Below are positions 22,854 through 27,131 of a DNA stretch of 64,000 nucleotides, piece by piece (within the stretch, counting starts at the first letter, position 1; each line of letters starts with the position of its first letter). Position numbers and translations under genes: made by a program. The notes under the pieces are model-generated. The model searched no databases. It saw only the letters and a program-made list of their open reading frames with translations, and had not been told where the DNA came from. The stretch is from NCBI GenBank assembly GCA_016350165.1, contig CP066225.1, forward strand, positions 4,278,001 through 4,342,000, read 5' to 3'. The stretch is from Planctomycetota bacterium (lineage in GTDB: Bacteria > Planctomycetota > Phycisphaerae > Phycisphaerales > Phycisphaeraceae).

Positions 22854-22865
22854 AGGGTCCAGTTG

Positions 22866-24323
22866 ATGAATATTTTGTTACAAACACTCGATACTCGTAT
22901 GTCATCCAAAGCAAAGACGATAGACCGTTCATCCGATTCGCAGCAGAATAACAGCGATTCTGATTTTCAACAGTCTCTGGAAAAAGTACGTCAAGATTCA
23001 ACAGCTAAAAATGATCAAACCAGTTCATCTGATACTAAAGAGATGAATACGAAGACTGATGCAGATTCAACTAAGTCAGAAGTCGCAACAGACGAAGCAA
23101 ATACAGAAGAAACATCTGTGAAAACAGATGAATCTAATCAAGCTCAAGATGACACGGAAGTTGTTGTACCTGAAGACACAAATTCAGAAGAACAAATTAA
23201 TAATGTAGATGCGGGCGCTTTGGTTGTGCAAATCAACATGCCAGCCGTTGAAGATCAACAAAATGCGCAGAGCGAAGGCATCGCATTAAACGCTCAAGAT
23301 TTGCAGAATATCGTTAAGGGTGTTTTTGAAAATGCCGTTGGTGATGTGCAAGTCGAATCATCAACAGAGGCAGCACAGACTGCTGAATTGAATCAGCAAC
23401 TTGAAGGTGAAAATGTACAAGTCACTGAAATGCAAACAGAGCAAAATGTCGATTCAGTCACAGTAAATACAGATGAAGCTGTTTTGCAAGTTGGTAACAC
23501 GGATCAAAAAACACAAAAAAATAATACTGTAGCATTAAACGAAAATACCAACACGGTGGTAAGTGGAACTGAAGAGAGCATCGTAATTGAATCCAATGCG
23601 AATGACTCGGCCAACATCTCTAAAAATCATACTGATACTTCAGCAACAACTGATGATGTTGTTTTAGAAGCAAAGATTGCAAAAGGTGGCAGTCGATACG
23701 ATGTTGAGCTTCAAGATGTATCTGAGAAAACGGTTGATAACAAAGCTGCAGTAGTATCAGAGAAGGTCAATGTTAATGTTGATGCTCGTGCACAGGAAGT
23801 TGCAGCCCAAGGCCAATTTCGTGTCGAAACTCAGCAAGTTGTCAATGAAAAAGCAACACAGCAAATTCAATTGCCATCCACTGGTGCTGATAGTGAACAC
23901 CAGAACGTCGCACGTATTGAACGTGGCCTGCAATCTGCACTTAACCAAAATGGCGGCAATGTTACTTTACGACTTACCCCTGCTGAGATGGGTACTGTAA
24001 GAATCAACTTGCAAATCCAAGGCACTCAGGTAAACGTACAAATGCATGCTGAGAATGAATCTGCACGTTCATTGCTCAATCAGCATGTTCAGCAGCTTCG
24101 CCAATCGCTTGAGCATCAAGGTTTGAGCGTTGATCGCATCGGCGTTCAGCAAATGCAAAATACATCACAGTCGAATATGAATTCACAATCGGATATGAGT
24201 CAGTCAGATGGCCGTAGCCGTGGTGAGTACTCAGGTAATCAGCAACAAAATCAACAAAATGACTCGCAGCAAGAACGTTCTCAAAACTTTGAGGATATGT
24301 TCGGCGACGAAATCGCAGCGTAA
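22866..24323 (+). CDS. fliK: Flagellar hook-length control protein FliK
   Basis: This protein of 485 residues is a secreted ruler that sets hook length and switches export specificity. Residues up to about 330 are a low-complexity region rich in Asp, Glu, Gln, Asn, Ser and Thr, as expected for a flexible ruler. The conserved FliK C-domain follows: NVTLRLTPAEMGTVRINLQIQGTQVNVQM and the LRQSLEHQGLSVDRIGV helix. The ATG at 22866 has AAGGG eight bases upstream; a TTG just before is less likely. Confidence 0.9.
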   Translation: MNILLQTLDTRMSSKAKTIDRSSDSQQNNSDSDFQQSLEKVRQDSTAKNDQTSSSDTKEMNTKTDADSTKSEVATDEANTEETSVKTDESNQAQDDTEVVVPEDTNSEEQINNVDAGALVVQINMPAVEDQQNAQSEGIALNAQDLQNIVKGVFENAVGDVQVESSTEAAQTAELNQQLEGENVQVTEMQTEQNVDSVTVNTDEAVLQVGNTDQKTQKNNTVALNENTNTVVSGTEESIVIESNANDSANISKNHTDTSATTDDVVLEAKIAKGGSRYDVELQDVSEKTVDNKAAVVSEKVNVNVDARAQEVAAQGQFRVETQQVVNEKATQQIQLPSTGADSEHQNVARIERGLQSALNQNGGNVTLRLTPAEMGTVRINLQIQGTQVNVQMHAENESARSLLNQHVQQLRQSLEHQGLSVDRIGVQQMQNTSQSNMNSQSDMSQSDGRSRGEYSGNQQQNQQNDSQQERSQNFEDMFGDEIAA

Positions 24324-24359: not shown

Positions 24360-25043
24360 ATGGTAGACGCAGTTGGAGCATCTGGAAACCAGACGCAAAA
24401 CGTCTCAGGATCGCAATCTAATCCCTATGCGGAATTAGATAGCTCTGAGTTCGTCAAGTTGATGGTTGCGGAACTGGTAAACCAGGATCCATTCGAACCA
24501 AACGACACCGCAGCGGTGATGGAGCAACTCAGCTCTCTGATGAATATTGAAAGTCAGAACAAGCTACAGGCTTCACTCGAATCAATGGTCAATCAACAAT
24601 CAATCGCACAATCAAGTGGTTTGATCGGCTACGAAGTTACCGGCTTGGACGGTAACAATAAAACAGTAACTGGTGTAGTTCAATCGATTCGTGTTGTTGA
24701 AGGCGAACCTCAGTTAGTACTAACAACTGGCAAGACACTCGGCGTTGATAGAGTTACGGACATCAATATTCCGCAGCAAGAAGAGCAGGATGTTGATTAT
24801 CTCTGGGATACCAACGGCGATGATGAAGTGACGTACTACGATTATGAAGAATGGTACTCACGTTGGGAAGAAAACCAAGGTAAAGATCCTGCTGTTAATG
24901 ACGATGGCATGATTGAGACATGGCAGTTCAATGACGGCGATTTTGATGGTGATGGCGATATTGATATCACAGACCTGACGTTACTGCAGAAGGTTTTCGG
25001 CGACATCATCGATGAGCATAATAACCCCAGCTCAGGTAGCTAA
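24360..25043 (+). CDS. flgD: Hook-capping scaffold FlgD with C-terminal dockerin-like EF-hand pair
   Basis: The N-terminal half (about 20-85; SEFVKLMVAELVNQDPFEPNDTAAVMEQLSSLMNIESQ) is the conserved FlgD domain that caps the growing hook. The usual C-terminal Tudor/Fn3 part is short. It is followed by two calcium-loop motifs: residues 150-161 (DTNGDDEVTYYD) and 194-205 (DFDGDGDIDITD). The second is followed by LTLLQKVFGD, a type I dockerin signature. Both loops keep the acidic ligands at positions 1, 3, 5, 7 and 12. This addition is not part of normal FlgD. Confidence 0.9.
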   Translation: MVDAVGASGNQTQNVSGSQSNPYAELDSSEFVKLMVAELVNQDPFEPNDTAAVMEQLSSLMNIESQNKLQASLESMVNQQSIAQSSGLIGYEVTGLDGNNKTVTGVVQSIRVVEGEPQLVLTTGKTLGVDRVTDINIPQQEEQDVDYLWDTNGDDEVTYYDYEEWYSRWEENQGKDPAVNDDGMIETWQFNDGDFDGDGDIDITDLTLLQKVFGDIIDEHNNPSSGS

Positions 25044-25054
25044 AGAATAGAACA

Positions 25055-25357
25055 ATGACTGCAAACGGAACTGATTTATTACGCATGCTTGAACCCGCTG
25101 TTAGGCCAGTAAATGTTGCCGACAGCCATTCTGCAAAAGCTGCTAATCAGCCGTTTGAAAGACAGGATTTTGATCAGCTTCTTCATGAAGCAAAACTCAT
25201 CACTGCACCAATGGATTCGTCTGTGAAAACAGATTCACAAACGAGTGCGGTCTCGGACTCACAAGCAAACATACTGTCCGACTTGTCACGGATTGACTCC
25301 GTGGAAAATGCCTCGCTAAGAGCAATCTTAAACCCGGGGCAAAATAGCGATCTTTGA
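25055..25357 (+). CDS. Small hypothetical protein between flgD and flgE
   Basis: This 100-residue polar protein has no signal or membrane segment. I do not recognise its family. Its position between flgD and flgE is where many bacteria carry a small flagellar operon protein (the TIGR02530 type), but I do not see that family's conserved residues. It starts 12 bases after flgD and ends 62 bases before flgE, so co-expression is likely. The Ser/Asp/Gln-rich middle suggests a disordered or exported protein. Confidence 0.6.
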   Translation: MTANGTDLLRMLEPAVRPVNVADSHSAKAANQPFERQDFDQLLHEAKLITAPMDSSVKTDSQTSAVSDSQANILSDLSRIDSVENASLRAILNPGQNSDL

Positions 25358-25418: not shown

Positions 25419-27131
25419 ATGGGACTTGGAACTTCAATGTATACCGCACTGTCAGGTTTGACAGCGAACTCACAACTATTGACTGTGACCGGTAACAATA
25501 TTTCAAACGTCAATACGACCGCTTTCAAAAGAAGCCAAGTCTCATTCGAAACTCAAATCTCAACCACTCTCAGAAGCGGTTCTGCTCCATCCGAAATGCA
25601 CGGCGGTACCAACCCAATGCAAATCGGTTTAGGTACTAAAATGGGTTCAACTCGCACAGTGTTCACAAGTGGTACACCACAACCAACCGGTGTTAGCACG
25701 AACATGGCGATTGATGGCAACGGCTTCTTCGTTGTGCAACTCAACGGCTCACGCTTCTTCACACGTGATGGTGGCTTCGTTCTCGACAGTAACTTTGATC
25801 TCGTTACCCCATCTGCAGGTGGACAAGTGATGGGTTATCCGATTGATGCTGACTTCAACATCGTCGAAGGGGTTATGCAGCCAATCAATATTCCAATCGG
25901 CGTTATGACCATTGCCGAAAAAACACAAAACGTCAATCTTTCAGGCAACCTTAACGTAGGCGGCGATGTAGGTTCAGCTGGTTCTGTTCATGAAACTCAG
26001 CCCATGTACTCCGACGCAACTGGCACTACGCTCGCAGATCCAACAACGCCTCTGGATTCACTTTACAACGCAGATGGCACAAAGCTTTTCGATATAGGTG
26101 ACGTAGTTACCATGGAAGGCCCAACGCGTGGTGGTGCGACAGTCACAACGATGACTTTTGAAGTTGGTGGAACTAATACAACTAACAGCGACGCTAACGG
26201 TACAACACTTCAAGAATACATGGACTTCATGCAAGGTTCACTCGGCATTGATCCAACTGTCGATAGCGCAGGGGTCACGCTCAATGCTGGTAAACTTACA
26301 GTTACAAGTAACTTTGGTTCAGGTAACGCATACCGTATTGAAGATGGCGACATTATCGTAAACAAAGGTAACTCACCATCAGTTCCATTTGACCTGTCTA
26401 AAACACAGGATGCGATCGGCGAATCATCCAAAACAAGTTACGTCGTCTACGATTCACTCGGTAACGAGATGAAAATTAACATGACATTCGTTTTGGATAC
26501 CAAAGATGACAGCGGATCAATTTGGCGCTTCTATGCCACTTCTGATCAAGACACGGATGTCGATACAGTCATTGGTAACGGCGTCATTCAATTCGATAAC
26601 AATGGCCAATATATCGGTGCCAGTGATGCCGAATTAATTTTGAACCGTGATGGTACTGGTGCTGAAACACCACAATCAATCAAGCTCGCATTTGATGCTC
26701 CAAACGGTCAACTCACTTCATTGCAAGACACAGCTGGCCAGGTTTCCATGATTCTTCAGGACGGCTCAGCACTCGGCACACTCGAAGATTTCACTGTTTC
26801 TGGTGACGGTATCATCACGGGTGTCTTCTCCAACAGTCTGCTTCGCCCGCTTGGCCAAGTACCACTTGCAATGTTTGCGAACAACGAAGGTCTTGAACAA
26901 CAAGGCGGTAACTTATATCGCGCTTCAACTAACTCCGGTACACCAATTCTCGTATCCCCAACAACTGGTGGTGCGGGCAGTGTTATCGGCCGAGCTATCG
27001 AAGGCTCAAACGTTGACTTGGCTGAAGAATTTCTCAGCATGATCAATGCGTCTACAGGTTTCTCCGCCAACTCACGTGTCATGTCAACCAGTAACGAGAT
27101 GATGCAGGAACTGTTGACATCGATTAGATAA
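25419..27131 (+). CDS. flgE: Flagellar hook protein FlgE
   Basis: This 570-residue protein forms the flagellar hook. The N-terminus MGLGTSMYTALSGLTANS and TVTGNNISNVNTTAFKRSQVSF is the conserved D0/axial motif. IDGNGFFVVQ and the C-terminal NVDLAEEFLSMINASTGFSANSRVMSTSNEMMQELL are equally diagnostic. It is longer than the enterobacterial FlgE (about 400 residues), the extra length being in the surface-exposed middle domains. The ATG has AGGAG upstream. Confidence 0.96.
   Translation: MGLGTSMYTALSGLTANSQLLTVTGNNISNVNTTAFKRSQVSFETQISTTLRSGSAPSEMHGGTNPMQIGLGTKMGSTRTVFTSGTPQPTGVSTNMAIDGNGFFVVQLNGSRFFTRDGGFVLDSNFDLVTPSAGGQVMGYPIDADFNIVEGVMQPINIPIGVMTIAEKTQNVNLSGNLNVGGDVGSAGSVHETQPMYSDATGTTLADPTTPLDSLYNADGTKLFDIGDVVTMEGPTRGGATVTTMTFEVGGTNTTNSDANGTTLQEYMDFMQGSLGIDPTVDSAGVTLNAGKLTVTSNFGSGNAYRIEDGDIIVNKGNSPSVPFDLSKTQDAIGESSKTSYVVYDSLGNEMKINMTFVLDTKDDSGSIWRFYATSDQDTDVDTVIGNGVIQFDNNGQYIGASDAELILNRDGTGAETPQSIKLAFDAPNGQLTSLQDTAGQVSMILQDGSALGTLEDFTVSGDGIITGVFSNSLLRPLGQVPLAMFANNEGLEQQGGNLYRASTNSGTPILVSPTTGGAGSVIGRAIEGSNVDLAEEFLSMINASTGFSANSRVMSTSNEMMQELLTSIR

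Follow-up and report, generated by a model that had tools for sequence, protein, structure and literature searches.

The flagellar hook cap protein FlgD of Poriferisphaera heterotrophicis ZRK32 ends in a tail that sequence comparison supports as a dockerin-type EF-hand module, and this also applies to the sister species P. corsica. Module and protein are each of a known kind; what is unexpected, and repeated, is their combination. With a probability of roughly 0.55, we propose that the tail is a fused dockerin module that folds with calcium after type III export, stabilising the outer lobe of the cap. A preliminary description of this DNA had proposed a dockerin-like EF-hand pair on FlgD; this is borne out by the sequence profile and by the sister species, which keeps the module, with weaker backing from the predicted fold. 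The same description knew of no dockerin on a flagellar scaffold. Indeed, none was found in the open-access literature (subscription papers lie mostly outside the scope of that search), nor was any earlier description of a FlgD with an EF-hand, or of a flagellar hook with a calcium-binding domain, found there.

The flgD gene and its domains

The window, meaning the whole stretch of 64,000 nucleotides that was analysed, belongs to the ZRK32 genome (G000), a single contig of 5,234,020 bases in which a whole-genome search placed FlgD at one place only. The nearest relative is P. corsica KS4 (G001), with a genome of 4,291,168 bases. In both the window and P. corsica, flgD lies between fliK and flgE. 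ZRK32 is reported to have a single polar flagellum (PMC10945688), and KS4 is reported to be motile (PMC7783415). The features of the region are as follows.

22863..24323, + strand: fliK, hook-length control, upstream of flgD (PF02120 Flg_hook, E 2.2e-19)
24360..25043, + strand: flgD, flagellar hook cap protein, 227 aa (PF03963, 50.4 bits, E 2.6e-13; fliK and flgE as neighbours)
24381..24584, + strand: FlgD N-terminal domain, residues 8-75 (Pfam PF03963; long helix 48-86 in the model)
24609..24755, + strand: short tudor-like domain, residues 84-132 (FLgD_tudor E 0.93, weak; model; PDB tudor matches)
24777..25040, + strand: dockerin-type C-terminal extension, residues 140-227 (local dockerin HMM; fold matches of a dockerin-seeded model; kept in P. 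corsica)
24807..24842, + strand: first calcium-type loop DTNGDDEVTYYD, residues 150-161 (sequence; followed by helix 159-172 in the model)
24939..24974, + strand: second calcium-type loop DFDGDGDIDITD, residues 194-205 (Dockerin_1 match 193-214; followed by helix 203-221 in the model)
25055..25357, + strand: 100-aa open reading frame between flgD and flgE, without a Pfam match at E <= 0.01
25419..27131, + strand: flgE, hook protein, 570 aa, downstream of flgD (PF06429, PF07559, PF22692, PF00460)

The PF03963 score of FlgD compares with a cut-off of 27 bits in the Pfam profile search, and residues 8-75 are expected to form the pentamer stalk helix. The tudor-like part is weak by profile but clear in the AlphaFold2 model, where it has five strands within residues 92-136 at pLDDT 90-97. 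In Salmonella, the N-terminal half of FlgD is described as the stalk of the pentamer and the C-terminal region as helping efficient hook assembly (PMC8595650). The N-terminal domain and the tudor fold are common to the Salmonella protein (7bhq; PMC8595650) and ZRK32 FlgD. However, the C-terminal domain of Salmonella FlgD is described as a tudor/Fn3 hybrid (PMC8595650), whereas in ZRK32 the C-terminal part seems to have shrunk to a tudor-like domain with a dockerin-type module after it, and no Fn3 (FlgD_ig) match is listed for the protein at E <= 10 in the Pfam search. An ordinary FlgD tudor/Fn3 domain was considered as the explanation of residues 140-227 and was rejected. The tudor domain is accounted for upstream, at residues 84-132, and therefore the extension is not that domain.

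Dockerin-type signature of the C-terminal tail

The two 12-residue calcium-type loops were found exactly where they had been claimed, at residues 150-161 and 194-205 of FlgD. The claim that acidic ligands occupy positions 1, 3, 5, 7 and 12 stands apart from position 3 of loop 1, which is Asn, a normal ligand although not an acidic one. The second loop had also been placed in a full type I dockerin context. Pfam Dockerin_1 (PF00404) does match ZRK32 FlgD at residues 193-214, covering positions 2-23 of the 57 in the model, but the 20.1 bits fall just below the curated cut-off of 22.9. EF-hand matches, below cut-off, also lie beyond the tudor part of the protein (Pfam). The P. corsica module scores 27.3 bits with Dockerin_1, above the cut-off, and in both species this profile covers one half of the module only. 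Each species has one imperfect loop, because position 6 of loop 1 in ZRK32 is Asp, where Gly is usual, and position 3 of loop 2 in P. corsica is Thr; loop 1 of P. corsica is canonical.

A local dockerin HMM, trained on 15 further dockerins from the two Poriferisphaera genomes, spans both halves of the tail and its two tandem loop-helix repeats. It gives the isolated tail 20.2 bits in ZRK32 and 38.7 bits in P. corsica, and none of 10,000 residue shuffles per tail reaches the score of the real one, the best shuffles scoring 14.9 and 10.9 bits, respectively. The bare two-loop motif, written as a single regular expression that picks up both loops in each species, appears in 57 of 10,000 shuffles for ZRK32 and in 6 of 10,000 for P. 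corsica. A stricter expression brings this to 31 and 6 per 10,000 but would miss the second loop in P. corsica. By itself, the motif carries less weight than the HMM shuffles. Among the 254 stop-to-stop segments of at least 80 aa in the window, FlgD alone has two such loops. A chance motif in an acidic tail was also considered, and the HMM shuffles together with conservation rule it out.

As in type I dockerins (PF00404), the FlgD tail has two calcium-type loops of 12 residues, with a helix after each. It differs from them in sitting on a flagellar protein, which would be exported by the type III route to judge from its family. Moreover, its two halves are dissimilar, the linker between the loops has an insertion of 13 residues relative to the local dockerin profile, and the genome has no detectable cohesin. 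We therefore call the module dockerin-type rather than a working cellulosomal dockerin, since no Pfam cohesin was found as a partner, although a partner of an undescribed kind may exist.

Predicted fold

The full-length protein was modelled by AlphaFold2 on 24 FlgD sequences, with a mean pLDDT of 74, and the PDB entry that matches it best is 7bhq, the hook cap FlgD of Salmonella (E 2.5e-3, TM 0.31). The extension was also modelled by itself, from an alignment with the P. corsica orthologue and 15 dockerins (mean pLDDT 71). The 14 best Foldseek rows for this second model are cohesin-dockerin entries, at weak E values that are all at least 0.43. Similarly, the 18 best VIA rows are dockerin entries, the best being 2vn5_B with Z 6.6 and an rmsd of 2.0 over 56 residues, although Z values below 8 in VIA may reflect only a common arrangement; the next row is an EF-hand protein at Z 3.8. 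The dockerin matches of the extension model are partly circular, because its alignment was seeded with dockerin sequences. Both models are only moderately confident, as their mean pLDDT values indicate. Taken together, the models support a dockerin fold of the extension, short of proof.

Conservation between the two Poriferisphaera species

FlgD is 65% identical overall between ZRK32 and P. corsica. The rate of nonsynonymous change (dN) is 0.15 in the N-terminal core, 0.24 in the tudor part, 0.24 in the extension and 0.97 in the disordered first 20 residues; the dN/dS ratio is left out because synonymous sites are saturated or nearly so. These values bear on the idea that the tail is the remnant of a dockerin in decay, no longer able to bind calcium. 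The imperfect loops, loop 1 in ZRK32 and loop 2 in P. corsica, would fit such decay. However, the tail and the tudor domain have the same dN, a quarter of the value for the disordered N-terminus, and most of the calcium-type ligands are kept in both species, so that we regard decay as very unlikely.

Possible origin of the tail

Dockerin-type modules are known from Sec-exported surface proteins and from cellulosome proteins. At E <= 0.001 there are 7 Dockerin_1 matches in ZRK32 and 10 in P. corsica, one of the latter being FlgD. Thirteen of the 16 matches other than FlgD belong to proteins with a PEP motif, a hydrophobic stretch and basic residues at the C-terminus, an arrangement that we take to be the PEP-CTERM layout, and in 12 of these 13 the match lies no more than 50 residues from the PEP-type C-terminus. 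The open-access literature yielded no instance of a dockerin together with PEP-CTERM. The local dockerin repeats of these proteins share with the FlgD tail the pattern loop-helix-W-x-GDF-loop-helix. Unlike them, FlgD has no PEP-type tail and, as its family suggests, would leave the cell by type III rather than Sec export. Two other proteins, at loci L052 (ZRK32) and L051 (P. corsica), have a C-terminal dockerin pair without a PEP-type tail; the L052 protein has a leader-like N-terminus and a motif that is presumably of the GH18 chitinase type.

Searched against the ZRK32 genome, the tail alone finds five non-self places, all of them dockerin repeats of PEP-type proteins. Since this is true of all five, the tail was most likely taken over, probably by fusion, from the pool of dockerin repeats on the surface proteins of Poriferisphaera. 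The search is weak (best non-self E 0.024), and because of this no single donor can be named.

Distribution among relatives

Of 61 genomes searched in the genus, family and order, 51 gave a FlgD match, and every one of these tails was read. The search of the class found FlgD in at least 286 of 397 genomes, with part of the tails being read. In all, the class contributed 182 genomes whose tails were read, including G039 and G419, which lack the module; because the genomes were picked partly for long open frames, counts of tails are not prevalences. Of all these tails, only those of the two Poriferisphaera species have the two-loop module, which makes 2 of the 35 genomes read of family f1, and the loops are absent from all 33 FlgDs read in other genera of that family. 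In family f3 of the Phycisphaerales, a single dockerin-type loop and helix stand at the end of FlgD in 10 of 69 genomes read (four of g55, two of g66 and four of g35), and all ten flgD genes lie between fliK and flgE. From f3, G523 was left out, its FlgD match being broken off at a contig end, and the tail of G330, which is partly N (L104/L282), was kept unaltered. A first reading of 50 relatives had suggested a tail confined to the genus; this was dropped, since the class and family surveys found half-repeats in another family.

The f3 proteins thus resemble those of Poriferisphaera in having a dockerin-type loop and helix at the C-terminus, and differ from them in having one loop instead of two, in the Gly/Pro-rich linkers that join the half-repeat or the acidic tails that come after it, and in their separate place in the FlgD tree. 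Whether FlgD of other Phycisphaerae shares the feature was a question raised in the preliminary description, and the answer is mixed: P. corsica keeps both loops, so that they are not lacking in every relative, f3 has half-repeats and most of the FlgDs read have neither. Because most relatives read are without the module, it is unnecessary for hook caps in general.

A single FlgD protein used as query against the contigs of the named genomes gave no match, and alignment A3 used in the same way gave 76 loci. A half-repeat is found in nine of these, including TMED75, SP135, ALOHA_ZT_32 and ZH-13MAY13 bins; eight of the nine are apparently genomes already counted above, the addition being L243, ZH-13MAY13-plancto44. 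The expression used in the survey of named loci requires Gly at loop position 6, and that used in the class survey does not. Six loci without a tblastn match (L106, L110, L114, L121, L127 and L131) were read by HMM with a wider flank (L206-L211). In a sample of the phylum, FlgD was found in 150 of 294 genomes; in 40 FlgD tails of other classes, selected for their long frames, the expression requiring Gly at position 6 detected no EF-type loop.

A tree of FlgD cores without tails was built from 119 rows and 118 columns (method 'quick', SH-aLRT support only); the alignment is short, and 46 of its 114 inner branches are open. In this tree, the Poriferisphaera pair (99*), the group of g55 and g66 (99*) and the g35 cases stand apart. 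Presence of the module requires a minimum of five changes on the tree, although the starred branches alone force fewer. FlgD has therefore probably taken up dockerin-type repeats more than once, gains and losses being indistinguishable on the tree.

For the tails read, FlgD of the class is mostly minimal, consisting of the N-terminal stalk and one short tudor-like domain, and its C-terminal end is a variable slot. In other genomes of the class, this slot holds a second tudor-like repeat, a He_PIG Ig domain, an Asp-rich or Gly/Pro-rich stretch, or nothing. Several lineages of one order have dockerin-type modules on FlgD, which suggests an outer lobe of the cap that is open to domain exchange. 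At L122 (G321, same order), the end of FlgD is a He_PIG-type Ig domain (58.1 bits, E 1.3e-15), which is another surface-protein domain on the hook cap. In other classes, five FlgDs of 368-447 aa (L299, L300, L303, L311 and L321) apparently consist of several tandem tudor-like repeats. Asp/Glu/Gly-rich low-complexity tails are found in FlgD of nine Phycisphaerae loci (L089, L093, L096, L103, L115, L155, L187, L188 and L204); these tails may bind calcium as well.

Potential function of the module

The P. corsica strain KS4 was grown in an artificial seawater medium (PMC7783415), in which the calcium, calculated from the recipe, is about 5 mM. In the mechanism that we propose, the two-loop module would probably stand where Salmonella FlgD has the fibronectin-type lobe of its 'petal'. 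At the low calcium level inside the cell, its loops would stay unfolded and the chain would pass the flagellar type III channel. Outside, at millimolar calcium, the loops would bind calcium and the module would fold, and the folded module could then stabilise the outer lobe of the cap and its contacts with FlgE or with neighbouring FlgD subunits. This is the simplest mechanism because calcium-induced folding of a dockerin was reportedly described by Lytle and co-workers in 2000, because a type III substrate must pass the channel unfolded, and because calcium is plentiful in the medium. Control of folding by calcium after export, already suggested in the preliminary description, is plausible and in our analysis the best of the options. 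External calcium drives the folding of RTX proteins in type I secretion, and the FlgD module may offer a simple system for asking if it also folds a flagellar export substrate.

Alternatively, the module may be a structural decoration, a compact calcium-stabilised lobe in a variable slot that could be swapped with the tails of relatives and in which calcium would have no regulatory role beyond the stability of the fold. The variety of domains that relatives carry in the same slot is consistent with this. On the other hand, further parts of the tree also have FlgDs with dockerin-type repeats, although these genomes are rich in dockerin-type repeats and this richness alone could explain the recurrence. 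We consider pure decoration possible, and clearly less probable than calcium-dependent folding after export. More doubtful is a stronger role of calcium, in which the external ion would gate the formation of the cap and the growth of the hook; in lineages with half-repeats, two adjacent subunits of the pentamer would then make up an EF-hand pair.

The preliminary description had also considered docking to a cohesin-like partner. In this case the tail would be a true dockerin, anchoring the hook cap, or FlgD shed from it, to a cohesin located at the surface of the cell or in its environment. The dockerin kinship of the tail is in line with docking, and cohesin-dockerin pairs without ties to cellulases, the 'planctosome', have been proposed in freshwater planctomycetes (PMC6461901). 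However, a Pfam profile search for Cohesin (PF00963) in the two Poriferisphaera genomes gave no match at E <= 10, which makes docking unlikely there. Among 20 genomes, cohesins over the cut-off are found in five, all of g35. Three of these have a half-repeat FlgD (G279, G542 and G510), and a fourth half-repeat genome, G458, has a cohesin match just below the cut-off (21.8 of 24.1 bits). In contrast, the other two cohesin genomes (G519 and G338) have a FlgD without a dockerin repeat, and seven repeat-bearing f3 genomes (six of g55 and g66, and G527) have no cohesin over the cut-off, so that in these 20 genomes cohesins do not track dockerin-bearing FlgD. Furthermore, the halves of the Poriferisphaera module are dissimilar, and single half-repeats should not by themselves make a normal dockerin pair. 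Docking is thus the least probable of the readings, although in g35 it may occur.

There are two other observations on the neighbourhood of flgD. Of 14 loci tested, four (L002, L003, L009 and L019) have a relative of the 100-aa reading frame (25055-25357) in this position, and none of the 10 f3 loci does. In FlgE, about 170 residues between the D1 and D2 Pfam matches are unclaimed by Pfam at E <= 0.01, and the tail of FlgD might make contact there. The larger FlgD of Campylobacter has extra sequence that, it was suggested, might meet extra domains of FlgE (PMC8595650).
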